NCBI GenBank assembly: GCA_903642235.1
Contig: CAHJWL010000011.1
Span: 1 to 64,000 of the forward strand
DNA length: 64,000 bases
Direction of reading: 5' to 3'
Source: Acidobacteriaceae bacterium
GTDB taxonomy: Bacteria > Acidobacteriota > Terriglobia > Terriglobales > Acidobacteriaceae
Shown here: one piece after another, positions 286-12,509 of the stretch
How the letters are laid out: every line of letters starts with the position of its first letter
How positions within the stretch are numbered: position 1 is the stretch's first letter
Notes under the pieces: generated by a model
What the model was told of the DNA's origin: nothing
Seen by the model: only the letters and a program-made list of their open reading frames with translations
The model's database searches: none
Program-made: the position numbers and the translations under genes

Positions 286-1197
286 GTGGATGCTCTGGAA
301 ACGTTGGCTGCGGCGATCTCGATGCACTGCAAGGAGGCTGGCACGTACGCGACGCCGATCGCCGGCTTGTATCTCTCGAAGGCGGTGTCAACGAGCACAG
401 CGCCGCAGACCGTGGACCGGGCCGTCTTCTGTGTCGTTGCTCAAGGCGAAAAGAGCATCGTCCTCAATCAGCGGGTCTACCCTTTCAGTGCAGGTCAGTA
501 CCTGGTCATACCGCTCGACCTGCCGCTCGTAGGACAGTTGATCCAGGCCAGTAAGCATAGCCCCTGCCTGTCCTTAACAATCGAGCTGGATATCGCCGAA
601 CTCACTTCGCTGATGACAGAGACGACGCTTCCGCAACCTGCCTCGCGAACACAACCGCAAGCGTTCGTAATCAAACCACTTCAAGATGATCTCTTGAATG
701 GTGTCATCCGCTTGGTAAACCTGTTAGATAAACCGCAGGAGATCAAGGTTCTTGCTCCTTTGTTATTTCGAGAGATCTTCTACCGTTTGCTTCTTTCCGC
801 AGACAACACCCTGATGCTGCGCGTCGCAAATCAGCAAGCACAGATGGGGAAGATCGCTCTTGGTATCGCCTTCCTGAAACGCAACTTGAGTCGAACTGTC
901 CGGATGAGCGAGCTTGCCCGGGAGATACGTATGAGTACAAGGAGAATGCACGTTTGGTTCAAAGCGGCGACAGGCATGACGCCAGGACAATTTGTGAAGA
1001 GCTTTCGCTTGCAAGAGGCACGGCGCATCATGATCTTCGAGACTCTGGATGTGAACACTGCCTGTCGACGTGTCGGTTACGTCAGCGCCTCACAATTTAG
1101 TAGAGACTACTTACGGTACTTTGGTGTTCCGCCGGCTCGTGATGTAAAAGCGATACGAGCGAACAATCAGCTGCAAGTAGGTGATCCGCGCAGATGA
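286..1197 (+). CDS. AraC family transcriptional regulator with AraC_N domain
   Basis: 303 residues. The N-terminal two thirds (about residues 20-170) match the cupin-like AraC_N sensor domain seen in regulators such as YqhC, with an SIVLNQRVYPFSAGQYLVIP-like strand pattern. The C-terminal 100 residues hold the two AraC helix-turn-helix motifs: MSELAREIRMSTRRMHVWFK followed by GYVSASQFSRDYLRYFGVPP. It is probably a cytoplasmic activator of the divergent gene at 1-110, since AraC_N regulators usually control neighbouring aldehyde or alcohol oxidoreductases. The inducer cannot be read from sequence. The start is the first ATG with a purine-rich stretch (AAGGTGG) upstream. Confidence 0.88.
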   Translation: MDALETLAAAISMHCKEAGTYATPIAGLYLSKAVSTSTAPQTVDRAVFCVVAQGEKSIVLNQRVYPFSAGQYLVIPLDLPLVGQLIQASKHSPCLSLTIELDIAELTSLMTETTLPQPASRTQPQAFVIKPLQDDLLNGVIRLVNLLDKPQEIKVLAPLLFREIFYRLLLSADNTLMLRVANQQAQMGKIALGIAFLKRNLSRTVRMSELAREIRMSTRRMHVWFKAATGMTPGQFVKSFRLQEARRIMIFETLDVNTACRRVGYVSASQFSRDYLRYFGVPPARDVKAIRANNQLQVGDPRR

Positions 1198-1411
1198 TAG
1201 CTGTCGCGGTGCGCCTTTTCTTATTCTCGACGTGAAAGCGACTCCTACAGCCTTCAATTAGCAGAGTGCTGCTGGAGTTCAACTCTCTAAAGAAACCGAC
1301 GTGAGAGTTGAGAATGGCTGAGACTACTGCGACGGAGTTTCGGGTGAGGTGAAATCGCTTTAAAGATTCAACGTGCGAACGGATCTATCCGTCGTATAAC
1401 CGGAGGTTCAA

Positions 1412-2110
1412 ATGAGGTCTTTGAAGCAGAGGGCGCGGATAGCTGGCTTGTGGTACTTGGGCTTCGCTCTTGGACCGTTTTATCTGCTCTACGTTCCCTC
1501 GAGGACGGTTGTGCAGAGCGACGCTGCCGCCACTGCAACCCGTGTACTAGGACACCAGACGCTCTATCGCTGGGGCATGATCACGGAAGCGATTGGCGCG
1601 GTCATGTTGATCGGCCTGGGCTTGGCGTTGTATCGGCTTTTTGAAGAAGTCGACAGACATCGCGCGCGACAAGTCGTGGCTCTAGCTTTGGTTTCGTCTG
1701 CCTTGGGATTGGTGGGCTTGCTCTTCGAAGCCACGGCCTTCATCGCTTTCCGCACAGGTGAGGGTGTTACCGGCTTCGACAAGCCCGCACGTGCAGCAAT
1801 TGGTCTGCTGTTGATCCGGATGCATGCGCATGCCTACAGCATCAATCAGACGTTCTGGGGTCTGTGGCTGCTGCCGCTCGGATGGCTGTTCGTGCGCTCG
1901 CGCTTCCTGCCGCGCTGGCTGGGACACTGGCTCCTGCTTGATGGCGTGTCTTGGGTAATCATCGGCACGAGCTGGCTTGTTGATCCCACTCGTACAGACG
2001 CTCTGTACTGGTATTTCTCGCCGGCAATCTTGGGCGAGCTTGTCGCTATTGTCTGGCTAGTGATCGTGGGTGCAAAGGAACAGGTGGCCGCCGATCCGGC
2101 TACGCTGTAA
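1412..2110 (+). CDS. DUF4386 family membrane protein
   Basis: 232 residues with about six hydrophobic segments; the opening RIAGLWYLGFALGPFYLLYVP and the central EAIGAVMLIGLGLALYRLF are typical of the DUF4386 family of inner-membrane proteins of unknown function. The start is well supported by GGAGG six bases before the ATG. It stands alone, 214 bases after the AraC gene and convergent with the hydrolase on the other strand. No catalytic motif is visible. Confidence 0.8.
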   Translation: MRSLKQRARIAGLWYLGFALGPFYLLYVPSRTVVQSDAAATATRVLGHQTLYRWGMITEAIGAVMLIGLGLALYRLFEEVDRHRARQVVALALVSSALGLVGLLFEATAFIAFRTGEGVTGFDKPARAAIGLLLIRMHAHAYSINQTFWGLWLLPLGWLFVRSRFLPRWLGHWLLLDGVSWVIIGTSWLVDPTRTDALYWYFSPAILGELVAIVWLVIVGAKEQVAADPATL

Positions 2111-2172
2111 CGGCAGATCGGATCCTCAGGAATCACACCTGCAAGCCAAATCGAAGCGGGACAAGCGTTCGT

Positions 2173-3047
2173 TCACGCGGCCCTAGCTATTAGATCGAAG
2201 GCGATCAGCGCTTCAGCCAAGAGTCGAGGCTGCTCCAGCGGAACCAGGTGACCGCAGCCGGGGATGTCCACGCGTTCCAGATGGTCGCAAACGGCACAAG
2301 CTGCTTGTACGCGACGTCACCCGCAAGGCCGCCGATGGCCGCCAACGTTGGAGTGGTCAGCCGGCGACGCAGAAAAGCTCCGCGTATCTGTTCCGCATTG
2401 GCCTTCATCGCTCGGTAGTAGTTGAAGCCGCACTCAAGCGACTTCCGCCCTGTGTAAGCCTCAACGAAGGCATTGCTGATATCGCTAGCTATACCAAGGC
2501 CGTCCTTGGTACCACTCGTGAAAAACCATTCGAGATACTCCCTCTCGTGTCCCACCAGCACGGTCTCTGCAAGATCCGGAATAGCGTGAAAGCCGAACCA
2601 CCATGGCGGGCCCTCCGAAAGGAAGTCTTCTGCGCCCGGCAGATCGCCCAGTACCGTCTCGCAGACGCTAAGTCCCCGCACTTTCTCAGGATGCCGCATC
2701 GCCAGCATCAGTGCGACCGGTGATTCCAGGTCGAGACTGGCCACCATCACCGGCTGGCTCACCTCCAGAGCAACCAGCAGGGCCACCATATCGTATGCAA
2801 GCGTATGCAGGTCATACCCGCCGTCCGCACGCGAACTTCCACCCAGACCACGAAGATCGGGTGCGATCACCCGACGACCGGAAGCCGCAAGCAGCGGCAT
2901 GACCTCGCGCCACATCATCCAGGTATGCGGCCAGCCGTGCAGCAGCAACACCGGCGCACCTTCCCCGATTTGTGCAACGTTGATCTCAATCCCATTTGCT
3001 TGCATCTTGCACAACGTCATGTCCTTCATCACAACTTGACCCCACAT
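2173..3047 (-). pseudogene. Alpha/beta hydrolase (epoxide hydrolase-like), frameshifted at C-terminus
   Basis: The open frame 3047-2205 encodes an alpha/beta hydrolase: oxyanion-loop VLLLHGWPHTWMMW, APDLRGLGGS, and a nucleophile-elbow region reading ASLDLES where the family usually has GHDWGG. The last 30 codons of the frame (after KQLVPFA) are unlike the family. Reading on in the other frame gives DHLERVDIPGCGHLVPLEQP, the expected segment with the catalytic histidine, ending at a TGA at 2173-2175. One base is therefore missing near 2286-2287. The 5' end overlaps the AdaA-like gene by up to 62 bases; internal ATGs at 3029, 3020 and 3005 are alternative starts. The frameshift removes the catalytic histidine, so the product is probably inactive unless it is a sequencing error. 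Confidence 0.75.
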
Positions 3048-3612
3048 ACCCGTCGAATCGGATCTTTCTTATGTCTGACGGTGTTCGCCCATAGAGTGAG
3101 GAGAACGCCGAAGCCATACTTCGCCTGCTGGGAAATCCGGACTTCACTGCAACGTCGTTTAGATCGCAGTTCGTCTCGTTGAGCAGGCGTTTCGCGCGTT
3201 GAACGCGCAAAGTCTTGGCCACCTGAAGCGGAGAGGCACCGACATGTTCCACAAACAGGCGCGACAGATGGCGCACCCCAACTCCCAGCCGTTCCGACAG
3301 TGACTGAACCGTGTTGTCATCCAGGCCGCCTGCCTCGATCATGCGGAGGCCGCGCGTTACGGTAGTCTTCGTTCCCATCCACGCAGGGCAAAACGGCGCC
3401 GACTCCGGCCTGCAACGAAAGCAGGGCCGGTACCCGTCGGCTTCCGCGGCGGCCGCGGTCGGGTAGAAGTGAACATTCTTGCTGAGCGGCGGCTTCACCC
3501 GACAGATGGGTCGGCAGTAAATGCCGGTCGTACGAACTGCACAGAAAAACACCCCGTCATACGCCGGATCGCGTCGTAGTCGAGCTCGATCGCATGTCTC
3601 AAAGTCCAGCAT
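2986..3612 (-). CDS. AdaA-like methylphosphotriester-DNA methyltransferase / AraC-type regulator
   Basis: 208 residues: an Ada metal-binding domain in the first 85 residues (FDGVFF-type segment, TTGIYCRPICRVKPP, then CFRCRP, supplying four zinc cysteines) followed by an AraC-type HTH (SLSERLGVGVRHLSRLFVEH and FPSRRSMASAFSSLYGRTPSDIR). This is the architecture and length of Bacillus AdaA, in which a zinc-bound cysteine takes a methyl group from phosphotriesters and turns the protein into an activator of alkylation-damage genes. It lacks the AlkA glycosylase domain carried by some longer relatives; given the AdaA precedent I read it as complete, although its tail overlaps the hydrolase gene. 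Confidence 0.82.
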   Translation of the reverse strand: MLDFETCDRARLRRDPAYDGVFFCAVRTTGIYCRPICRVKPPLSKNVHFYPTAAAAEADGYRPCFRCRPESAPFCPAWMGTKTTVTRGLRMIEAGGLDDNTVQSLSERLGVGVRHLSRLFVEHVGASPLQVAKTLRVQRAKRLLNETNCDLNDVAVKSGFPSRRSMASAFSSLYGRTPSDIRKIRFDGYVGSSCDEGHDVVQDASKWD

Positions 3613-3784
3613 CCGCTCAGACTAGCGGATGGCGAGCCCCTCAGACCGCAGTTGTCGAGGATCAAGTCCGAAAGCAGTCTCTTGGGCGCAGAGGAGCATC
3701 TGTATACCCCACGGTCGGCAGGGACGAACGGTGACATTTTGGCTTTGCACAGCTACGACGGTTTCGCTTTGCGGCTACACCATG
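3613..3784. other. Non-coding flank left of the insertion sequence
   Basis: 172 bases between the AdaA-like gene and the IS. The short open frames here have no recognisable protein features. The last five bases (ccatg, 3780-3784) are the left copy of the IS target duplication. Confidence 0.5.
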
Positions 3785-3835
3785 TGTTCGCGCTCAGTAG
3801 AAATGACAGGGTGATGCGCCCAATAGAAATGTCAG
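3785..3835. repeat. Left terminal inverted repeat of the IS
   Basis: Begins TGTTCGCGCTC and contains TAGAAATGACAG followed about 20 bases later by TAGAAATGTCAG. It aligns, with mismatches, to the reverse complement of the right end. The repeated TAGAANTG unit is a likely transposase-binding site. Confidence 0.7.
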
Positions 3836-3996
3836 TATAAGGGCCGTCGTCGTCGTGCGGTGGGAATGTGTGAAATCACGAAGTGATTTCCAAGGTATGT
3901 GGGAAGGGTGGGACGGCTTCACCGTTCCACCCTTTCCAGCAGACCATCATTTCCACCGCGGCGGGCTGCGTGCATTTTTTTGGTGATGTTTACCCA

Positions 3997-4436
3997 TTAG
4001 AAGCTTGGGTTAGCAAGGCCCCGGATGATGTCTAAGCGATTCGTCGGCGCGTCAGGGGAGAGGAAGTCTGAAATCGTACTGCTGTGCGTCGGGGGCGATG
4101 CAGGAACTCCACCGGCCACTCTGTAAGCCGTTCTTCCTTGACGTGACTGTACTGCTCAGGCTCGTCTTCGGCTATGTACTCAACCTGTCGGATGAGTGCT
4201 AGTGGCTCTTCCGCTCCGGCGGCACTCTCTGCAAACGCAAGCGCTTCGGCGTAGGTTGCAAAGGCATAGTAGTAGTCGTTCCCATCCTGCTCGTCAGGAG
4301 CGCCCCGTTCTGGGTGACACCAAATCCGGTACTCAAGAACCTCATCCCAGACGAATCCGCCGCCTGCACCTGTCACGGCAGAGTAGGTTCCAACAAGAGA
4401 AGCGTCGACGGCGTTGGGGTATGTAAGAGTGTTCAT
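3997..4436 (-). pseudogene. IS passenger gene of unknown function, frameshifted
   Basis: The frame from the ATG at 4436 encodes an acidic protein (MNTLTYPNAVDASLVGTYSA; WCHPERGAPDEQDGNDYYYA) rich in Tyr, Glu and Ala. The open frame stops at 4032 with an Arg-rich tail. One missing base near 4077-4078 would instead continue as TISDFLSPDAPTNRLDIIRG and end at TAA 3997-3999, which matches the ending I recall for this family. Family members are sometimes annotated as acetyltransferases, but I see no acetyl-CoA-binding motif and give no function. It lies 18 bases downstream of the transposase reading direction and inside the IS termini. Confidence 0.62.
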
Positions 4437-4454
4437 GGCTCGATGAGGAAGTCC

Positions 4455-5779
4455 TTACACGATACCGGCTGCTAGGCGTGATGTCTCCGTCTCGCTGCGT
4501 ACCCGCTTCTGGTAGCCGGTCTTCTCGCTGTTGGTCATGACCTTCGTTGCGAGCCGGAGGTCCTGCTGCGCCTTTACGATCGCGAGCGCATGGCCAAGTC
4601 TCTTGTTTTCGACGATGGCCGTGTGGCTGACACGCTGGTCCTTGCTGAACACGCGGTAGGGAAGAACGTGGTCTCGCCAGCGAACCTCTAGCGGTCTGTC
4701 CCAGTAGTCGAAGAGTTCGACGTACTGGCCCTCCAGGCCCTTCGCCACATCTGTCTGCTCCAGGATGATCTGCTTGCGGTCATAGTGGAACGTGAGCTGT
4801 GCGCCAACGTAGCGCTGCTCGCGGTGGCATAGGATGTCGTTCAGCCGGGGCGTGGTCGTTCGCAGCGGACGGTGAAGGTCTTGCGTCCTGGTCGGCGGCA
4901 CGGCAAAACGCTCGTTGTAGCGCTCCATGAACGCAGGCAGGAAGGCGTTGCCGGCTGCCATGTCGCTGATGCTGGCGAGCCGTAGCTCCTTCACGAGCCG
5001 GTCCTGCAACGTACGGTTGGCACGCTCCACGCGCCCCTTCGCCTGGCTGGAGTTCGCGCACAGGATCTCGATGTTCAGTTCCGAGAGGGCTCGGCCGAAC
5101 TGCGTCATACCTTGGCCGCCCTTGGTGTCCTGGCGCACGACCCTGAACACGGAATGCTTGTCGGAGTAGAAGGCCACAGGGCAGCCGTGCTCGTTCAGGT
5201 AGCCGCGCAGAGCAGCGAAGTACGAAGCCGTGCTCTCGCTCGGCACGAACCGCAGCTGCATCAGCTTGCTGGTGGCATCGTCCACGAACACCAGTAATGT
5301 GTAGGGCTCCGCCCGGTCTTCGAACCAGCGGTGCTCGCTGCCGTCGATCTGCACCAACTCGCCGTAAGACTCGCGCCGGAGCCGCGGCTGGTGGAAGGTC
5401 TTGCGCTGCTTGCGCGAGAGCCACACGCTGTCGGCCATCATCCAGCGCCGCAGCGTCTCCCGGCCTACGTGGATCGCGTGCCGCTCAGCAAGAGCCTCGG
5501 TGGCCAGCGTCGGCCCGAAGTCGGCGTAATGGGCCTTTACCAGCTCGACCGCGAACTTCCGGACACCTGGGTTATGGCTGCGATTCGACGTTCGGCCACG
5601 TGCCTTGTGCACCAGCCCGAACCCGCCGTTCTCTTGGTACCGGCTCAGTAGCCGGTACGTCTGCCGCTCACTGATGTCCAACAAGGAGGCTGCTGCCGTC
5701 ACAGTCCGCCTGCCGGAATGCACCTCGTCAGAACCTCAACACGCCGAACCTCGCGCTCGCTCATCCTCGTCCACGCCAT
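4455..5779 (-). pseudogene. DDE transposase, ISNCY/IS1202-type, N-terminal frameshift
   Basis: The open frame from GTG 5723 gives 422 residues: an HTH region (AAASLLDISERQTYRLLSRY) then an rve-type DDE core with D in LVQIDGSEHRWF, D in FYSDKHSVFRV and E in KGRVERANRTLQDRL. Family members start MSEREVxRVEVLxEV. Here ATGs at 5779 or 5764 begin MSEREVRRVEVLT and run into the main frame only if one base is restored near 5726-5727, giving LTEVHSGRRT. The gene is therefore either broken at its N-terminus or carries a sequencing error. Translation from the GTG would still give an intact catalytic core without the first residues. Confidence 0.85.
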
Positions 5780-5787
5780 CCTTAGAA

Positions 5788-5837
5788 CCTGACAGTTCTA
5801 ATGGGCGGGAACATGACAGTTCTAACGAGCGCCTACA
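5788..5837. repeat. Right terminal inverted repeat of the IS
   Basis: Read from the tip inward it begins TGTAGGCGCTCG and contains TAGAACTGTCA twice, about 20 bases apart, mirroring the left end. The ccatg target duplication follows directly outside it. Confidence 0.7.
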
Positions 5838-5893
5838 CCATGACTATACAGAATCTTCGCTATCGGACCAAAACTATCGACCTGTAGATGTTC

Positions 5894-6109
5894 TCATAGG
5901 TCCACAAAGAATTTACCCAGATCAATTTCAAGTGCGTCCGCGATTCGAGCAAGTGACCGTATACCAATCTCCTTCTTCCCTCGTTCCAGCTCTGACAGGT
6001 GCTCGCGCGCTAATTCCGCGTGATCGGCCAGCATCGCTTGCGTCCATCCGCGAGCTGCGCGCAGTTCGCGAATGCGCCTTCCGACGCGCGTGCAGATGTC
6101 TTTCGCCAT
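5894..6109 (-). CDS. Small Xre family transcriptional regulator
   Basis: 71 residues, almost entirely one Cro/CI-type helix-turn-helix: VGRRIRELRAARGWTQAMLA, then HLSELERGKKEIGIRSLARI, then a short ALEIDLGKFF tail. Such single-domain repressors are common on mobile elements. It lies just right of the IS and is divergent from the LAGLIDADG gene, so it could bind the 86-base region between them; the region holds cttacgta-type inverted repeats around 6140-6162. The target is inferred. Confidence 0.85.
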   Translation of the reverse strand: MAKDICTRVGRRIRELRAARGWTQAMLADHAELAREHLSELERGKKEIGIRSLARIADALEIDLGKFFVDL

Positions 6110-6139
6110 TCTGCCAGCATCGATTTGACCGGCGCAATC

Positions 6140-6162
6140 TACGTAAGCTATAGCTTACGTAC
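6140..6162. promoter_or_regulatory. Candidate operator between xre and LAGLIDADG genes
   Basis: The divergent intergenic region contains TACGTAAGCTATAGCTTACG, an almost perfect palindrome (CGTAAGC TATA GCTTACG). A dyad of this size between a small Xre repressor and a divergent gene is a plausible repressor operator. This is seen in sequence; the binding is inference. Confidence 0.5.
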
Positions 6163-6195
6163 GTTGGCATATTTCTAATAGAGAGGATCCAGATC

Positions 6196-7389
6196 ATGAA
6201 GGCAGATTACATTTCCAGGTTCGATCAAAAAACAGTCGATGCCGTCATTTCCCTTCGCGAGCAAGGACTTGGCAATCGAATCATCACAAGAGAAGCGGGC
6301 TTACCCCGGCACACCGTCTGTGTGCTCCTCCGCAAGCTTGGGTATGACGCGAAGCATTTCACGCCCGAGACGCGTGGAAGAAGGGCATTTTCGCTGCAGA
6401 CCATTGATCTCGTCCTTCAGCGCAGAAAGGAAGGTGTCTCCAATCGCGACATCGCCCTTGAGGCCGGCATGTGTCAGAAGTCTGCGACCCAGATCCTGCG
6501 CCGGCATGGCTTCCGAGCCGCCAATAATCTTCCACAGACTCCCAGCCGCTTCTTCTATTCGCAGGAAGTTATCGACTTGGTACTGGGTCTTCGGAAGAAG
6601 GGCTTTGGATCTCACGTCGTCGCGCGGCAGGCTGGAATCTCTCGTAATGCGGTGAAGCGAGTCTTCCGGCTCGGTGGCTTTCTGCGGCACGGATGCTCAG
6701 GCGGCGGGTCGCACGGTGGTTCTGGAGGTCCTCAGGTGAGCGTCGATATCAGCTATCTAAACCTCACTCCGGAGATGGCGTGGTGCCTGGGTCTCATCTA
6801 CGGCGACGGCCATATGGCTAACGTGGGCCATCAGGTCACGATCGTGACCTCAGACAAAGACGTGGCCGAGAAGTTCGCCAAGATACATGGCAGACCTCGC
6901 GTCATCAATGCGGGTAAGTACTACCGCGTAACCTGGACCTGCGCGCGCCTCTATCGTGAACTTGAGAGCTATGGCCTGTGCCCGAATAAATCAGACAAAC
7001 TCCGATTTCCGAAGCTTCATCCGAGTCTCCTACCGCACTTCGTTCGTGGCCTGATTGATTCGGACGGCTCATTCTACCGCAAAGGACCAGGGAAGCTCGC
7101 AGACTTGCTGGCCTTCTGCTACGCATGCATCTGCGGACCGTTCATGCAAGATCTTCGCGACACGATGGTCGAACACGCCGCTGTGTCGGAATCCCTTCAC
7201 GTAAAGAGCAGACTTCAGAGAGACACGCCGAACCGGGTTTGGTTCATTAAGTACAGCCACGCGAATGCGACCAAGCTCGGGCACTGGGTTTACGATGTCT
7301 CGACCGAGGCGATCCGCGGGGAACGCAAGTATGCTCGATGGTCTGCGGCGAAGGATCGTGTCCTCTGGCCCAGCAGTCGCAAGCAGTAA
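6196..7389 (+). CDS. Free-standing LAGLIDADG endonuclease-like protein with three HTH repeats
   Basis: 397 residues. Residues about 8-165 hold three repeats of roughly 50 residues, each with the pattern T/V-I/V-D-x-V-(8)-G-x-(5)-A-(2)-A-G-(5)-V/A-x-x-(L/V)-x-R (for example IITREAGLPRHTVCVLLRKL, IALEAGMCQKSATQILRRHG, VARQAGISRNAVKRVFRLGG), which look like resolvase-type helix-turn-helix units. A Gly/Ser linker (about 170-182) leads to a homing-endonuclease domain with two LAGLIDADG helices: WCLGLIYGDGHM near 194 and FVRGLIDSDGSF near 280; both carry the acidic catalytic-type residue. The gene is not inside an intron or intein here. Whether it cuts DNA or acts as a WhiA-like regulator is open. 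Confidence 0.82.
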   Translation: MKADYISRFDQKTVDAVISLREQGLGNRIITREAGLPRHTVCVLLRKLGYDAKHFTPETRGRRAFSLQTIDLVLQRRKEGVSNRDIALEAGMCQKSATQILRRHGFRAANNLPQTPSRFFYSQEVIDLVLGLRKKGFGSHVVARQAGISRNAVKRVFRLGGFLRHGCSGGGSHGGSGGPQVSVDISYLNLTPEMAWCLGLIYGDGHMANVGHQVTIVTSDKDVAEKFAKIHGRPRVINAGKYYRVTWTCARLYRELESYGLCPNKSDKLRFPKLHPSLLPHFVRGLIDSDGSFYRKGPGKLADLLAFCYACICGPFMQDLRDTMVEHAAVSESLHVKSRLQRDTPNRVWFIKYSHANATKLGHWVYDVSTEAIRGERKYARWSAAKDRVLWPSSRKQ

Positions 7390-7415
7390 GCTCGCATCGT
7401 CTATCTTGCGTCATT

Positions 7416-7473
7416 TGATCTTCTCCGGGAGCTACATTCACGCAACAGGCCCGTAGTCTCCCGGAGAAGATCA
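7416..7473. terminator. Bidirectional terminator / perfect 16-bp inverted repeat
   Basis: TGATCTTCTCCGGGAG (7416-7431) is exactly complementary to CTCCCGGAGAAGATCA (7458-7473), with a 26-base loop. It sits between the convergent LAGLIDADG gene and the winged-helix gene, and includes the TGA stop of the latter. It lacks a long T run, so termination is inferred from position. Confidence 0.65.
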
Positions 7474-7992
7474 CCAGCGTTTGAGCTTCCCGAAGGGTCC
7501 TAGCCGGCTCGCAAGAAGGTTATTGCTTCGAGCATATTGTGGCTGCGATGAGGCCAGCTTCCGCTCGTGTACAAGCCGATCGCAGTCAGAGGCACTCAAG
7601 CGAGGCACCGGTTCGACGAGGACAGGAGGAAAGATCATTTCCTGTTGAGATCTATCAGGAGCCGCCTTCCTTCTACCCCCACATCTGTATCTCTCGATGG
7701 CGGCCTGTGGCCCCTCGGCTTGCTTTTGAAGTCTGGCCAACGCGAGTTGGATCGTCGCCGGGCCGCTTTTCATCTGGGGATGTTCGATTTCAATCCACCG
7801 CGATTTCTCCAACTCACCTAGAAGTCGCCATACGTTGGTGCGGGACATTCGTGCCGAGGTCGCCAGTTCCTTTGTAGTGCACCTGCAGGTGCCTCTCTCA
7901 TCCGACGCCCGAGCGATCGCCAGCATGAGCATGCGCGGGGAGCTCTTCCCTGGAAACCGTTCCCACATCTCGGTATAAAGTTCGGTGTTCAT
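7471..7992 (-). CDS. Winged-helix DNA-binding protein of the mobile module
   Basis: 173 residues. The first 90 form a helix-turn-helix domain (PRMLMLAIARASDERGTCRC, ELATSARMSRTNVWRLLGEL, then a wing with WIEIEHPQMKSGPATIQL); the rest is a basic, low-complexity tail. The start has a strong Shine-Dalgarno (AAAGGAG, 7 bases upstream). Winged-helix proteins of this kind are often replication or transfer regulators on integrative elements. It is the last gene of the minus-strand module, 54 bases after the primase gene. Confidence 0.72.
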   Translation of the reverse strand: MNTELYTEMWERFPGKSSPRMLMLAIARASDERGTCRCTTKELATSARMSRTNVWRLLGELEKSRWIEIEHPQMKSGPATIQLALARLQKQAEGPQAAIERYRCGGRRKAAPDRSQQEMIFPPVLVEPVPRLSASDCDRLVHERKLASSQPQYARSNNLLASRLGPFGKLKRW

Positions 7993-8046
7993 AAGCTTTC
8001 TCCTTTAGACCTTAGAGCGCTATGCGCTTTCGGTAGAACTGATGGA

Positions 8047-8910
8047 TCAACTACCCGCATGTCGCTTCGCGAGAGTGATAGTTCGCTGGATGTAAGCTGA
8101 CCTGCGGCGTTGGTCCGGATCACGAGAGAGATAATTGTTCTCAAGCGCATGTTCTACGTCGCTTTCCGCCATCCCCAGAGAGAGAGCCGCAACAGAGAAG
8201 GAGGCATCGGCTCGTGCCGGACTTCCGCTGAACTGTGGCAGGTCCCGGAAGCGGGTCACAGAAAGTCGCGAGAACCTCCTCCCCCTCGGGGGAGAAAGGG
8301 TCCTGCAGGCAGTGTGAGCCGCTTGCTCTCGCTGAGTGGTGAGCACCGCGATCTGATCTTCGATCTCAGCCCGGAACCTGGTCGCTCCCGGGAAGATCGT
8401 TCCGGCGTGGCTGCTGAGCAGCACGAAGGGAGCAAGCCCATCCGCCCGCCGGTGCTTCGGCTTGGGATTGGTAAAGCCCGGCATGCGGCCGAAGTGCCTC
8501 CAGTCCGCTGCGCCAGGGTCGCCTCCAAAGCGCGCTGCGAGCGTACGCGCTGCAAACGTTGCAAGGGCGGCTGGCAGTACGTCTGTGTGCCGCAACCACG
8601 CCTGGAAGTTCTTCGGACTGGTCTCGACTAAGGCCGCAGGCGCAAAGCCTTCCTGGCGCAGCAGACCGACTGCGGTAGCACTGAGATCATCAAGCAGCGT
8701 GCAGGCATGTTCGCCAGCAGGCCTGACATAGACGTGTTCCCCGCGCGAGTTGCGATATCGGAGAAACGGCAGCCGCTGCAGAACCTCTTCGCCAGTCAGC
8801 CCATCGTGCCCAGGTAGCATGCCGCCCTGCGCTCCGCAGATACCAATATCGTAGCTCGGTGCTCCTAACGCGCGTAGGAAGCAAGAGACTGCTAATTCTG
8901 TCCTGCTCAT
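8047..8910 (-). CDS. RepB-like DNA primase (archaeo-eukaryotic primase superfamily)
   Basis: 287 residues resembling the RepB primase domain of mobile elements: LRYRNSRGEHVYVRP, then the acidic TLLDDLSATAVGLL (D74, D75), ETSPKNFQAWLRH with the NxQAW signature, and DWRHFGRMPGFTNPKPKHR, the conserved basic segment. These primases make primers for plasmid or integrative-element replication. The C-terminal 90 residues are poorly conserved and basic. It lies in the minus-strand set with the possible HUH protein, 40 bases after the zinc protein gene. The family call is strong from motif order; activity is inferred. Confidence 0.75.
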   Translation of the reverse strand: MSRTELAVSCFLRALGAPSYDIGICGAQGGMLPGHDGLTGEEVLQRLPFLRYRNSRGEHVYVRPAGEHACTLLDDLSATAVGLLRQEGFAPAALVETSPKNFQAWLRHTDVLPAALATFAARTLAARFGGDPGAADWRHFGRMPGFTNPKPKHRRADGLAPFVLLSSHAGTIFPGATRFRAEIEDQIAVLTTQREQAAHTACRTLSPPRGRRFSRLSVTRFRDLPQFSGSPARADASFSVAALSLGMAESDVEHALENNYLSRDPDQRRRSAYIQRTITLAKRHAGS

Positions 8911-8950
8911 GCCACACCTCCTGAACCGTCCGGTTTGCTCCCCGTTACAT

Positions 8951-9625
8951 CTAGATCGAAAGCGAAATCGCCCCCGGACCAGCGATGTCCGTTGCTCTCG
9001 TTCCTTCTTTGGTCTTTGCGTCCGAAGTCGCTCGCTTTGCTGTCTTCAACTGAGCGAGCAAAGTGTTGCTGGCCCGGATCTCAGCAGCCAAAGCCCGACA
9101 TGCCAGGCGGGTGTAGGTCCACTCATGCATACCCTTGGGTCGTTCCGGGAAGCGCTCCGTCATGTCTCCGGTTCCGCCGAGCCGGATCCTGCACATCTGG
9201 GCACGAGCCAGGTCCCGGCTTCTGGCAGGAACCCGTTGCAATGGATACGACACACCGCGGCAGCGGCGGCAAAGGAAGTCCTCCTTGCCGTAGAGGATCG
9301 CCACACCACGTCCGCAGGCTCCGCGCGGACAGACCAGCCAAGGTCGCCGGCCGCCATAGTGGCACTTCGACCAGCGCACGCGGAGTTCAAATCTGCTGCG
9401 ACGCCTGCCGAAAAGATCTTGTCCCAGATCGAAGTCGACTGTGACACAGTTGCTCTGGAACCGTGTCCACAGTTGAGCTCTTCCGCCGCCATCACGCCGA
9501 AGCTGCAGCCCACGAGTGCGACCTGAAACCAGGAAGCCGTGCCGCTCTAACCAGCGCACATCCAGCCGGTAGAACTCCGACGGCAAACCGTTCTTCCGTG
9601 CACGCCCGCTACCGATGCCGCCCAC
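8951..9625 (-). CDS. MGGxGSGR-type conserved zinc-binding protein of mobile elements
   Basis: 224 residues starting MGGIGSGRARKNGL and carrying the order of motifs I associate with a widespread uncharacterised family: LDVRWLERHGFL near the start, YGGRRPWLVCPRGACGRGVA, LYGKEDFLCRRCRGVSYPLQ and RPKGMHEWTYTRL. Four cysteines (CPRGAC and CRRC) could bind one zinc ion. Relatives are frequent beside integrases and replication genes, but no function is established to my knowledge. Its start overlaps the end of the upstream possible HUH gene by 17 bases, which suggests a shared transcript. Confidence 0.78.
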   Translation of the reverse strand: MGGIGSGRARKNGLPSEFYRLDVRWLERHGFLVSGRTRGLQLRRDGGGRAQLWTRFQSNCVTVDFDLGQDLFGRRRSRFELRVRWSKCHYGGRRPWLVCPRGACGRGVAILYGKEDFLCRRCRGVSYPLQRVPARSRDLARAQMCRIRLGGTGDMTERFPERPKGMHEWTYTRLACRALAAEIRASNTLLAQLKTAKRATSDAKTKEGTRATDIAGPGAISLSI

Positions 9626-10301
9626 GGTGGCCTCCTCTTGGCTTCATTGGCGTGGACTTCGAAATGGTTGACCGACATGACGTTCTCTCAGCGGGAACTG
9701 GGAGGTCCTTAGCGACAGGTCGCATGGTCAGCGTCTCAGCGCAAACTCGATGGCGAATGTGATCAGGGACGAACGAGTCGGTTTGCTGTTCGGCAAATAG
9801 ATCTCTGTCAACTTGGAAAGACATCCGTCCCAAGTTGTGCAGGTCCCAATCGAAGTTAGCCTCACTCGCCGTCTTCGCGATGTAGAACATCCCACGCAAG
9901 TTCGGGCGAAAGGGTTCACTCTTGCAATCTCCGAAGTGTTCCATCCAAAGCGCCGGCACAAGCACTTCTAGCGTTTCCCGGTGTTGTTCTAAGGCAGCTA
10001 CAGCGAAATGCCAATGAAGTGGAGTCGGTGACAAACCCAGACCGGAGGTCTTCCTTCGTTCCAGAACGAACACGCACGCGACGGGACCTCCCAGCGCTCG
10101 CTCCAGGCGATCGAGGTAGGACTTGAACGTCCCTTTCGCACCATCTTCGTCCATTGACCTGCGATAGGTTCCGCAAGCGTAGACCTGCCATGCTAGTTCC
10201 GAAAAGAAGCTGCCGTACTGGTGCGCTGCCAAGGAGAAGCGAGTAAGCCTCTTGCACTCGTGCGGAGGTGCGCTCTCAGAAGATCTGTGGCAAGTAGACA
10301 T
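9609..10301 (-). CDS. Possible HUH-type replication endonuclease
   Basis: About 230 residues. I read a Rep-like order: an N-terminal strand and helix (GTFKSYLDRLERALGG), a strand CVFVLERRK, then PLHWHFAVA (H96, H98) matching the metal-binding HUH motif, and later GMFYIAKTAS, which resembles the catalytic Y-x-x-K motif (Y140, K143). This is the motif spacing of rolling-circle Rep proteins and relatives, but overall identity to any named family is not visible to me. The frame opens at TTG 10313; the ATG at 10301 is preferred. The C-terminus is basic. It sits between alpA and the zinc protein. Moderate confidence in the fold, low in a specific role. Confidence 0.55.
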   Translation of the reverse strand: MSTCHRSSESAPPHECKRLTRFSLAAHQYGSFFSELAWQVYACGTYRRSMDEDGAKGTFKSYLDRLERALGGPVACVFVLERRKTSGLGLSPTPLHWHFAVAALEQHRETLEVLVPALWMEHFGDCKSEPFRPNLRGMFYIAKTASEANFDWDLHNLGRMSFQVDRDLFAEQQTDSFVPDHIRHRVCAETLTMRPVAKDLPVPAERTSCRSTISKSTPMKPRGGHRGRHR

Positions 10302-10463
10302 AGGACGATCCAAGGAGAAGTTGATTTCTCTGGTTGGTGAAGCGTTGACAGGAGCGATGCCACGCCCACCGCCGGTGGTAAAAGAACGTGGTGAATCGAT
10401 CCAACTGGGTGGGGCCAGGGCTGCTTGTTGCCCCTGACTCTGAATGTGCTTAGCACAGTAGGT

Positions 10464-10790
10464 CTAGAAACCTGAACGGTTGTCGGCACGTCTCTTTCCA
10501 CGACACGAAGCCTTTGATCGCGTTATGGCGGGCTGGGCTGACGCGGACGTCGTCGACAAAAGAGACTCGGGGTGCCCGGGATGAGCGAAAGGCGATCGGT
10601 GTCCGCAGAGCAGACCATCGATCCAGGCGTCAATGTCGCTCTCAAGCCAACCGATAGCTCGTGCGCCAAGGCTAATCTGTCTGGGAAAGCTGCCTTCTGC
10701 AATGCGCAGGTAAATGGTGCTCCGGGACAGGCCGGTTCGGGCCTGCACGGAAGGTAAACGTAGGATCCGTCTCGCTGCTTGGTTGTGCAT
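10464..10790 (-). CDS. AlpA family regulator (excisionase-like)
   Basis: 108 residues; the first 65 match AlpA/MerR-like excisionase regulators: RILRLPSVQARTGLSRSTIY, IAEGSFPRQISLGARAIGWL, ESDIDAWIDGLL. These small DNA-binding proteins regulate or help integrase-driven excision. The start is very well supported by AGGAGG five bases before the ATG. The last 40 residues are low-complexity. It lies 235 bases from the end of the integrase gene, the usual neighbour. Confidence 0.88.
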   Translation of the reverse strand: MHNQAARRILRLPSVQARTGLSRSTIYLRIAEGSFPRQISLGARAIGWLESDIDAWIDGLLCGHRSPFAHPGHPESLLSTTSASAQPAITRSKASCRGKRRADNRSGF

Positions 10791-11025
10791 TGCATCCTCC
10801 TGGAGCTTGGTTGAACTCCACTGAGAGGAAACGTATGACAGCTGCGGCCAAGAAGCTATACCCCTAGGGCCTCAAAACGCATTTGAGTTAACCAGTTTTC
10901 GCTATTCGAGGCGCACTTTCAGATCATTCGAGCCACACAGAGCCAAACCCAATCATGTCCGCATATCTTTTATGCTTTCTGATCCACCGGCCAGCTCCCG
11001 TGTGACGCCCCTCAGGGTTCTGATG

Positions 11026-12243
11026 TCACGCCACAACGTCTTTAAAGCGCAGCACCCTGGCGCCGCGCTGGGTTTGCTCCAGGAAATCTGCCCACTCCTG
11101 CATCATCTTCGAACGCGCTTTTAGGTAGAGTGCATGATTGTAGGCGGCACTCACAGCGTTTCTCGGGGCATGCGCCAGCTGCAATTCAATGTGTTCGTGA
11201 GCGTAGCCCTGCTCGTGCAGCAGCGTGGAAGCAAGTCCGCGAAAGCCATGCCCTGTCATCCTTCGCTTGAAGCCCATCCGTTCAAGACCCTTGAGGATGG
11301 TGTTGTTGCTCATGTGACGAGAGGCGCTTCTCTCGCCGGGGAAGAGCCAGGCAGAGTCGCCGCACAGCGGACGCAAGGTAGCAAGTACTTCAAGGGCCTG
11401 GCTCGAAAGCGGGACGATGTGCGGTGTCCGCATCTTCATCCGTTCAGCCGGAATGCTCCAGCGTGACGCTTCCATATCAAACTCAGACCAGGTAGCCGCA
11501 ATCAGTTCCCCGGTACGCACGAACGTGAGGGCCATCAACTTAATTGCTAGCCGAGTGATGTGCTTTCCCGGGTAAACCTCTACCTGCCGAAGCAGCTCCG
11601 GCAACTCCCTTGCGTCGATGCGGGCATAATTCACCTTACGCGAAGCTTTGAGGATGTCCCGAGGACGAATTTCGGTCGCCGGATTACGCTGCGCAAAGCC
11701 ATGAGCTATGGCGAAACGGAAGATCTGGCCTGTCGTCTCGAGAGCGCGTTTAGCAACATCCCGTGCACCTCGGCTTTGGATCAGACGCACCATCGCGACG
11801 ACCTCAGGAGCCTCGATGTTTATCACTCGCAGCGCACCGAGGCTCGGCAGAATGTTGCTGGCAAGACGGCGCTTCGTCGAATCAACATGCCGTGGGCTCT
11901 TTCCGTCCTGCCAGTGCTCAAGCCACTGAGCAGCTACGCTTGCAAAAGAGTTCTCGACGGCGATACGCTGACCGCGCTTCTTTGCCTTGCGCTCGGTCAT
12001 AGGGTCAGCACCCTCGACCAACAACTTTCTTTCCTCCGCACGTCGTTCGCGCGCCCGCGCCAAGGAGACCTCCGGGTATCTCCCGAACGTCATCACCTTC
12101 TGCTTGCCCTCATGCCGGTACGTCCATCGCCACAACCTGCCACCTGATGGTGTCACCCACAGGTATAGGCCCCCACTGTCACTCAGCTTGAAAGGCTTGA
12201 CCTTGAGTTTGGTTCGCTTGATCTCTGTGTCGGTTAGCGGCAT
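11026..12243 (-). CDS. int: P4-type tyrosine recombinase (integrase)
   Basis: 405 residues from the ATG at 12243 (MPLTDTEIKRTK); the frame is open a further 23 codons upstream but that stretch does not look like the family. N-terminal arm-binding domain with LSDSGGLYLWVTPSGGRLWR, core-binding domain, then the catalytic residues: Arg in FVRTGELIAATW, HGFRG (H-x-x-R), LAHAPRN and the nucleophilic Tyr in SAAYNHALYL. The gene starts 180 bases from the 3' end of tRNA-Ser, the usual target for this integrase class, and reads away from the tRNA into the element. Confidence 0.93.
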   Translation of the reverse strand: MPLTDTEIKRTKLKVKPFKLSDSGGLYLWVTPSGGRLWRWTYRHEGKQKVMTFGRYPEVSLARARERRAEERKLLVEGADPMTERKAKKRGQRIAVENSFASVAAQWLEHWQDGKSPRHVDSTKRRLASNILPSLGALRVINIEAPEVVAMVRLIQSRGARDVAKRALETTGQIFRFAIAHGFAQRNPATEIRPRDILKASRKVNYARIDARELPELLRQVEVYPGKHITRLAIKLMALTFVRTGELIAATWSEFDMEASRWSIPAERMKMRTPHIVPLSSQALEVLATLRPLCGDSAWLFPGERSASRHMSNNTILKGLERMGFKRRMTGHGFRGLASTLLHEQGYAHEHIELQLAHAPRNAVSAAYNHALYLKARSKMMQEWADFLEQTQRGARVLRFKDVVA

Positions 12244-12422
12244 GTCATCGCCCCCATGTGGAATGTACCCACAATCTGGAACAAACATACCCACAAATAT
12301 GCCCACGATCAAGCATGGCTCTTATTGGACACTAGTGGACGTCAACAGACATGAACTCCAGATTTCACTAAGGTGTTACCCAGATCCTAGACTCTATCGG
12401 ACACCCTGAAACAACTTGACGG

Positions 12423-12509
12423 CGGAGGGAGAGGGATTCGAACCCCCGTTACCCGTTAGGGTAAAGCGGTTTTCAAGACCGCCTGTTTCAACCACTCACA
12501 CATCCCTCC
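12423..12509 (-). tRNA. tRNA-Ser (anticodon TGA)
   Basis: On the minus strand an 87-base cloverleaf: acceptor GGAGGGA pairs with TCCCTCC, the anticodon arm is GCGGT-CTTGAAA-ACCGC with anticodon TGA, a long variable arm (TACCCTAACGGGTA) is typical for serine tRNA, and the T arm reads GGGGG-TTCGAAT-CCCTC. CCA is not encoded. Its 3' end is next to the integrase gene and is the likely attachment site. I did not find a second copy of the 3' end within the window. Confidence 0.95.

Follow-up and report, generated by a model that had tools for sequence, protein, structure and literature searches.

A stretch of 64,000 nucleotides from an Acidobacteriaceae genome (assembly GCA_903642235.1, contig CAHJWL010000011.1, positions 1 to 64,000, hereafter the window) carries a compact six-gene module next to a tRNA-Ser(TGA) gene. 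We consider this module to be probably a small integrative element at the 3' end of the tRNA gene, which would excise, replicate by the rolling-circle route and prime its second strand with a primase of its own. An earlier note, made from the letters alone, had placed six minus-strand genes beside tRNA-Ser, and the list of open reading frames (ORFs) together with ARAGORN confirmed the tRNA and all six genes, in the order integrase, AlpA, HUH-like protein, MGGxGSGR protein (MGG), RepB-type primase and winged-helix (WH) protein:

12421..12509, minus strand: tRNA-Ser(TGA), 3' end at 12421, presumed attachment target (ARAGORN; Rfam tRNA)
11026..12312, minus strand: P4-type tyrosine integrase, 428 aa, TTG start (PF13356, PF22022, PF00589; PHROG 1)
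10464..10790, minus strand: AlpA family regulator/excisionase (PF05930; PHROG 66)
9609..10313, minus strand: putative divergent HUH (Rep-type) endonuclease, single-tyrosine YxxK (motif conservation, 15 sequences)
8951..9625, minus strand: MGGxGSGR protein, zinc-ribbon-like, RPKGMH motif (alignment of homologues, AlphaFold2 model)
8047..8910, minus strand: RepB'-type (RSF1010-like) DNA primase (PF16793; solved chain 3h20_A)
7471..7992, minus strand: WH protein, distantly similar to phage O-like replication initiators/DnaD (PHROGs)
7416..7473, no strand: perfect 16-bp inverted repeat, arms 7416-7431 and 7458-7473, 26 nt between them (repeat search)

The gaps between the HUH, MGG, primase and WH genes are -17, 40 and 54 nt, the HUH and MGG frames overlapping by 17 nt, and such spacing is consistent with a single operon. 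Our reading is built on this gene content, the conservation of the HUH motifs, the homology of the primase and the association of the MGG family with integrases. In the proposed cycle, the integrase and AlpA would excise the element as a circle; the HUH protein would nick one strand at a double-strand origin within the element, starting rolling-circle replication with the polymerase and helicase of the host; the released single-stranded circle would be made double-stranded by means of the RepB'-type primase, possibly at the hairpin 7416-7473, while the WH protein might help to recruit or regulate; and the circle would finally re-integrate. Rolling-circle elements need both a nicking initiator and priming of the displaced strand, a plasmid-encoded primase being one of three ways described for the latter, and the RSF1010 primase recognises the origin of its plasmid (PMC4595007). 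A HUH nicking enzyme and a primase that aligns with RepB would thus make a coherent two-strand set. Among the papers listed in our searches, judged by titles and the beginnings of abstracts, we found none describing such an arrangement of genes. If the reading is true, Acidobacteriota have in this module a minimal integrative element amenable to testing, one that itself provides for the start of both strands, with a nicking initiator and a dedicated primase; to our knowledge, little work has been done on such elements in this group.

The HUH-like protein and the replication genes

A search of a protein catalogue found six close HUH proteins, including that of the window, which were aligned with nine divergent sequences, the latter 21-29% identical to the window protein. 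In the resulting 15 rows (residue numbers follow P0027), only T45, H96, H98, W119, Y140 and K143 are invariant, and E81, S86, G89 and G124 are nearly so; the ORF in the window has HWH at 100 and YIAK at 144. The invariant residues fit motif 1, the HUH motif and the tyrosine motif of single-tyrosine initiators, in which the last takes the form YxxK. The roles of the HUH and tyrosine motifs in rolling-circle initiators have been described (PMC3218068). Seven of the 15 rows, the window's own not among them, matched the Pfam family PF23343 (REP_ORF2-G2P) at E <=1, with 1.2e-5 as the best value, and these weak matches, along with the invariant T, HxH, W and YxxK, support the possible HUH nuclease proposed in the earlier note.

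The loci of the nine divergent relatives contain a tyrosine integrase in four cases (L187, L211, L213, L215) and an excisionase in four (L187, L212, L213, L215). The integrase of L187 lies beside tRNA-Asp, that of L215 beside tRNA-Lys, and that of L211, where no excisionase was found, beside tRNA-Ala. L212 has an excisionase and no integrase on the available stretch. Relatives of the HUH protein were not found in plasmids even at E 0.1. Beside the HUH-family gene, L187 carries two large genes (2754-8593) that look restriction-modification-like, by reading only, and L211 an ArdC gene as cargo (10627-11511).

The RepB-like primase of the earlier note was borne out by a match to PF16793 (RepB_primase) of 4.4e-40 (138 bits, the cut-off being 24.3) and by homology to a solved RepB, namely chain 3h20_A, "Replication protein B", which we take to be RSF1010 RepB'. 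The latter alignment (1.6e-38) spans residues 3-223 and includes the DD pair, presumably catalytic. Plasmids from this bacterial family carry homologues 49-52% identical, and one of the plasmids is typed as conjugative. The WH protein gave Pfam matches below the curated cut-offs only, with winged-helix families at the top, as well as PHROG 391 (replication initiation O-like, 9.8e-6) and PHROG 6643 (4.6e-5).

The earlier note had considered that these genes might not co-occur elsewhere. Linkage was judged from catalogue contigs of identical length in base pairs (bp) with at least one source common to each set, contigs being matched only by length. On this basis, three contigs other than that of the window (3701, 5261 and 57398 bp) have HUH, MGG and primase genes together, and a further five (51334, 27041, 7361, 8517 and 469445 bp) have two of these genes, the homologues in the linked sets being 70-85% identical. 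By the same measure, all five other close HUH homologues have an MGG and/or primase partner. The triple matches and those on long contigs are unlikely to be due to chance. On this indirect evidence, the three genes seem to travel together.

The MGG protein family

The catalogue contained 26 MGG proteins, including that of the window, and none of them had a precomputed Pfam domain. An alignment of 24 sequences (P0012 and P0026 were left out) has 13 invariant columns, among them C99, C104, C119 and C122, four cysteines that suggest zinc binding. The window protein matched no Pfam, PHROG or NCBIfam model up to E 1, and the strings MGGxGSGR, MGGFGSGR, MGGIGSGR, MGGYGSGR and RPKGMH were not found in the literature searched. 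The AlphaFold2 model is confident (pLDDT 81.5), and it gave no confident fold match among solved structures.

The family is far wider than the type of element seen in the window. A genome scan with the pattern RPKGMHxxTY gave 75 loci, from Alphaproteobacteria to Fructobacillus and haloarchaea. A set of 90 loci was assembled from relatives, these scan loci, viral contigs and plasmids, many of them short contigs; a recognisable MGG frame is present in 88, a tyrosine integrase in 48, a DUF3987 protein in 13, a HUH protein in 10 and a winged-helix protein in nine, counts which include the seeds of the profiles (five for the integrase and four each for the other three). The AlpA of the window matched seven ORFs in 82 MGG loci by phmmer, and an AlpA profile made from two seeds found just those two.

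The association with integrases was quantified within the Acidobacteriaceae, where MGG occurs in 28 of 398 genomes, this one included. Twenty-two loci were counted: the window, L009-L014 and L252-L266, the last being 15 of 28 other match rows. Three of the remaining rows correspond to L010, L012 and L013, ten weaker ones stayed outside the count, and L015, a weak match, was dropped. A tyrosine integrase lies within 8 kb of MGG in 15 of the 22 loci, and in none of 20 control regions picked arbitrarily from genomes of relatives (Fisher p 1.9e-6). Part of the training set of the integrase profile came from MGG loci, among them the window and some loci of L009-L014; in the loci that played no part in training, the count is 10 of 15. 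The loci without an integrase are L009, L012, L252-L255 and L258. An excisionase is present in 11 of the 22.

What precedes MGG varies. In the 15 integrase-bearing loci, the slot upstream of MGG, toward the excisionase where there is one, is occupied by a HUH gene in the window and in L014; by a family that we call "F23" in L010, L011, L013, L256 and L264, and on the opposite strand in L257 and L259; by Prim-Pol in L261 and L265; by a 297-aa protein without a name in L263; and by a DnaD/O-like gene in L260 and L262 (not adjacent to MGG), none of these types being present in L266. L014, from the same genus, has the order tRNA-Met, split integrase, 271-aa frame, excisionase, HUH, MGG. Of five plasmids with MGG that were examined, three have a HUH gene just upstream: G2P-like in Phaeobacter pP18_i and annotated as inovirus-type Gp2 in two from Psychrobacter. 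Neither a G2P-like nor a Gp2 gene precedes MGG on the plasmids of Leisingera and Solidesulfovibrio.

MGG is most likely a DNA-binding replication accessory common to elements with differing initiators. A more far-reaching hypothesis, which we offer tentatively and would expect rather to fail than to hold, makes MGG the zinc-ribbon replication partner and hallmark of a large class of elements that crosses phyla and takes in both minimal integrated elements and small plasmids. The neighbouring initiator (HUH Rep, Prim-Pol, DUF3987, DnaD-like or an uncharacterised family) would be freely exchanged while MGG stays; the window element would then belong to this class, its rolling-circle cycle being run by two enzymes, HUH plus RepB' primase. 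If the reading of the module is true, it also draws attention to a conserved protein family that would tag integrase-linked elements, together with some small plasmids, across many phyla, and whose member in the window is matched by no model of Pfam, NCBIfam or PHROG. Knowing the function of this family would explain why replication genes so different retain one neighbour, and the family would help in finding such elements.

Several further details of these loci may be recorded. Judged by record titles, MGG reaches haloarchaea in L076 and L094, and Firmicutes, lactic acid bacteria included, in L048, L084, L088, L089, L091 and L092. Copies of "F23" lie between the excisionase and MGG at L010:9323-9853, L011:3272-3778, L013:8890-9417 and L264:10139-10756, an extra 216-aa frame separating "F23" from MGG in L264; the L010 copy matched neither Pfam nor PHROG. 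Prim-Pol genes (PF09250) stand beside MGG at L261:2632-3642 and L265:8338-8832, the frames overlapping in L265. A Psychrobacter contig with an integrase (L047) has two HUH genes, both of 251 aa, about 3.7 kb apart. In four loci from Erythrobacter/Porphyrobacter/Sphingomonadales (L057, L069, L078, L083), an integrase, a G2P-like HUH gene, a gene for about 1,090 aa and MGG follow in this order.

The integrase and the tRNA-Ser site

The P4-type integrase and AlpA of the earlier note were both confirmed by Pfam. The integrase, which lies beside the 3' end of the tRNA, holds the arm-binding (Arm-DNA-bind_3, PF13356), core-binding (Phage_int_M, PF22022) and catalytic (Phage_integrase, PF00589) domains that define a P4-type tyrosine integrase, all above the Pfam cut-off. 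It also matched PHROG 1 (integrase, 7.1e-66) and the NCBIfam model NF007246 at 1.1e-75, yet under the cut-off of that model. AlpA matched PF05930 (5.9e-20) and PHROG 66 (excisionase and transcriptional regulator, 9.2e-10).

The tRNA-Ser(TGA) loci of 12 relatives were compared with that of the window; the flank available for L196 is short, about 0.5 kb. Three of them (L192, L193 and L199) have, directly beside the tRNA, an integrase or the remnant of one that belongs to the same lineage (52-75% identity by piece), and tblastn found an AlpA relative in one (L192). At none of the 12 loci, with or without an integrase, did tblastn (E 1e-3) find the HUH, MGG, primase or WH gene, so the situation that would have troubled the earlier note, relatives lacking the integrase and keeping the other genes in this place, was not encountered. 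The permease gene to the right is within about 1.5 kb of the tRNA in three relatives (L190, L191, L199), and the left flanks vary, as in a hotspot. Flank genes taken from the relatives (up to five on the left and three on the right) had no match in the window left of the integrase (E 1e-15), so an empty site could not be defined. Such a comparison of flanks had been suggested in the earlier note as a way to attL and attR; neither was found in the window or the genome.

The longest exact word common to the tRNA region and the rest of the window has 12 bases and lies just outside the 5' end of the tRNA. Genome-wide, 20- and 23-base tRNA patterns with up to three mismatches matched the tRNA-Ser genes in contigs C3, C5 and C7 and two places without a tRNA, in C2 and C5, each with three mismatches; a reversed control pattern gave one match per strand. 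Matches to 11-base words near 5913 and 6487 were considered as attachment (att) site candidates and judged to be due to chance. The distal copy may lie off the contig or be shorter.

Inverted repeat and genomic setting

The 16-bp inverted repeat of the earlier note, at 7416-7473, is perfect; its role as the boundary of the element was not supported. The repeat overlaps the stop codon of the WH gene and sits between convergent genes, at the 3' end of the operon, and thus provides no evidence for the end of the element. As single-stranded DNA it folds with -21.5 kcal/mol, compared with a shuffle mean of -8.94 (z -5.6, equalled by 0 of 200 shuffles). It has no T tract, and the terminator scan did not select it. 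Exact copies of the repeat arm were not found elsewhere in the window and, among 222 loci, only in two loci of this genome. The repeat could be a hairpin terminator or a single-strand priming site.

The window begins at base 1 of contig C11 (the assembly has 3.79 Mb in 29 contigs), so the element could continue past the assembly edge on the left. Toward the contig start, the module is followed by a LAGLIDADG endonuclease-like gene, a small helix-turn-helix gene and an ISNCY transposase gene, and then, among the ORFs at 286-3612, by an Ada/AraC-type gene, a hydrolase, a DUF4386 protein and an AraC regulator. Since the last four look like ordinary host genes, the left end of the element may fall between about 3.7 and 7.4 kb. 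The gene at 6196-7389 (plus strand), convergent with the WH gene, encodes a protein with helix-turn-helix matches in the N-terminal half; the C-terminal part is LAGLIDADG-like and of endonuclease type (PHROG 4645, endonuclease, 7.4e-21). The gene may be a homing-endonuclease-like passenger or a component of the element. The transposase gene at 4455-5723 (minus strand; NF033594, 9.4e-141) sits between the module and the contig start, and no clear terminal inverted repeats were recognised in its flanks. On the window, PADLOC gave a single weak winged-helix match, and a promoter scan found no promoter.

Alternative explanations

A number of results weigh against the rolling-circle element proposed above. 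The window protein matched no Pfam family up to E 1, and a profile comparison with G2P-like proteins was only suggestive (70.6%, 3.9e-5). HxH and YxxK at such spacing arose in 152 of 20,000 shuffles of its sequence. Its AlphaFold2 model is poor (pLDDT 50.5); in this low-confidence model the order of elements after the first helix is b-a-b-b-a-b-a, with HWH within a strand, and the best 50 matches listed by VIA-align included no HUH enzyme. No nick site or origin for it was found: the intergenic regions 10791-11025 and 10302-10465 show no clear excess of folding over shuffled sequences (z -0.03 and -1.1), and for this reason we place no origin in them. A profile search with the alignment of the close HUH proteins showed relatives to be rare: they occur in 3 genomes of the class draw (398 besides this one) and in 7 of the family draw (397 besides this one), with one genome common to both, and these gave the nine divergent sequences. 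Five of the nine divergent HUH loci have no integrase, four of which (L189, L212, L214, L216) stop at a contig end near the HUH gene, while L188 does not. In the ORFs of the 82 MGG loci, phmmer gave no match to the HUH or WH protein of the window and one weak match to its primase (0.0038), which makes the partners in those loci analogues or distant relatives. As to linkage, five of the 12 MGG homologues considered (P0002-P0012, P0026) have no credible partner, compared with seven that do, and one length match, of 1299 bp (MGG P0009 with primases P0128 and P0146), must be due to chance because such a contig is too short for both genes, which calls for caution with short contigs. Finally, searches with the tRNA 3'-end pattern, for shared words and with genome-wide patterns gave no second att copy.

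The absence of a distal att is also what might be expected of a decayed or immobile remnant, with an intact integrase, a lost distal end and genes that are mere passengers. The ISNCY transposase and LAGLIDADG genes beside the operon, and the integrase remnants at the same tRNA in L199, point in the same direction; the six frames, however, are all open and tightly spaced, and homologues as close as those of the linked sets occur together elsewhere. We hold this explanation to be unlikely. We see a better case, somewhat short of an even chance, for an integrative and mobilizable element (IME), in which the HUH protein would act as a non-canonical relaxase at an origin of transfer, a helper conjugative element would give the channel, and the primase would prime the transferred strand in the recipient. 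Of 144 streptococcal IMEs, 118 have as putative relaxase a protein resembling rolling-circle replication (RCR) initiators (PMC5704250). A primase acting on the transferred strand is known from several conjugative or mobilizable plasmids (PMC4595007), and homologues of the window primase occur on plasmids of the same family, the conjugative one included. On the other hand, canonical relaxase, coupling and transfer genes were not recognised among the six genes or the left ORFs scanned, and the HUH relatives are closer to replication (G2P) than to relaxase families. Mobilization overlaps with the rolling-circle reading and does not exclude it, and the likelihoods that we give are not meant to add up to one.

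Packaging by a helper phage, as for a satellite of the kind of phage-inducible chromosomal islands (PICIs) or P4, appears quite improbable. Gram-negative PICIs need int, alpA and a primase, and these and most of their other genes are unidirectional (PMC10111431), just as int, alpA and the replication genes of the window share one direction. The primase, however, is of RepB' type; capsid, terminase and capsid-remodelling matches were absent among the six genes and the scanned left ORFs; and pattern scans of 2.9 million viral contigs gave three MGG loci and no confirmed relative of the HUH protein or of the primase, the scan for the latter using one query sequence that reaches close relatives only. 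The statement of the earlier note that the module has no capsid or conjugation genes agrees with Pfam, PHROG and NCBIfam scans of the six genes.

Comparison with known systems

pSAM2, an actinomycete integrative and conjugative element (AICE), has a tRNA target and an excisionase. Like the window element, AICEs of this type combine an integrase with their own replication initiator (RepSA with a HUH motif, or Prim-Pol types), and they replicate autonomously after excision (PMC3218068). They carry an FtsK/SpoIIIE-type Tra, whereas the window element adds the RepB' primase and the MGG protein; no such Tra was found in the six genes, the three ORFs at 4455-7389 or the six ORFs left of 4450, where the contig begins. 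IMEs with RCR-type relaxases are likewise integrated elements with a protein related to RCR initiators, and the accessible part of the source does not mention a RepB' primase in them (PMC5704250), unlike in the window. Gram-negative PICIs and P4-like satellites share int, alpA and a primase with the window element (PMC10111431, PMC8628076), which differs in having no recognised late or remodelling genes, a different primase and a HUH protein. Of the P4 set (alpha primase-helicase, psu, sid, delta, epsilon, int and alpA), general Pfam and PHROG scans recognised only int and AlpA. With filamentous phage gp2 and REP_ORF2-G2P proteins the HUH protein shares HxH and YxxK; its relatives match that Pfam family weakly, and the window protein is too divergent to do so. 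A comparable pair of enzymes is MobA-RepB of RSF1010/IncQ, in which a HUH enzyme is teamed with a clearly homologous RepB' primase. In RSF1010, MobA and RepB' are joined in one protein, whereas the window encodes the HUH protein and the primase separately, the MGG gene standing between the two, and does so within an integrated element.

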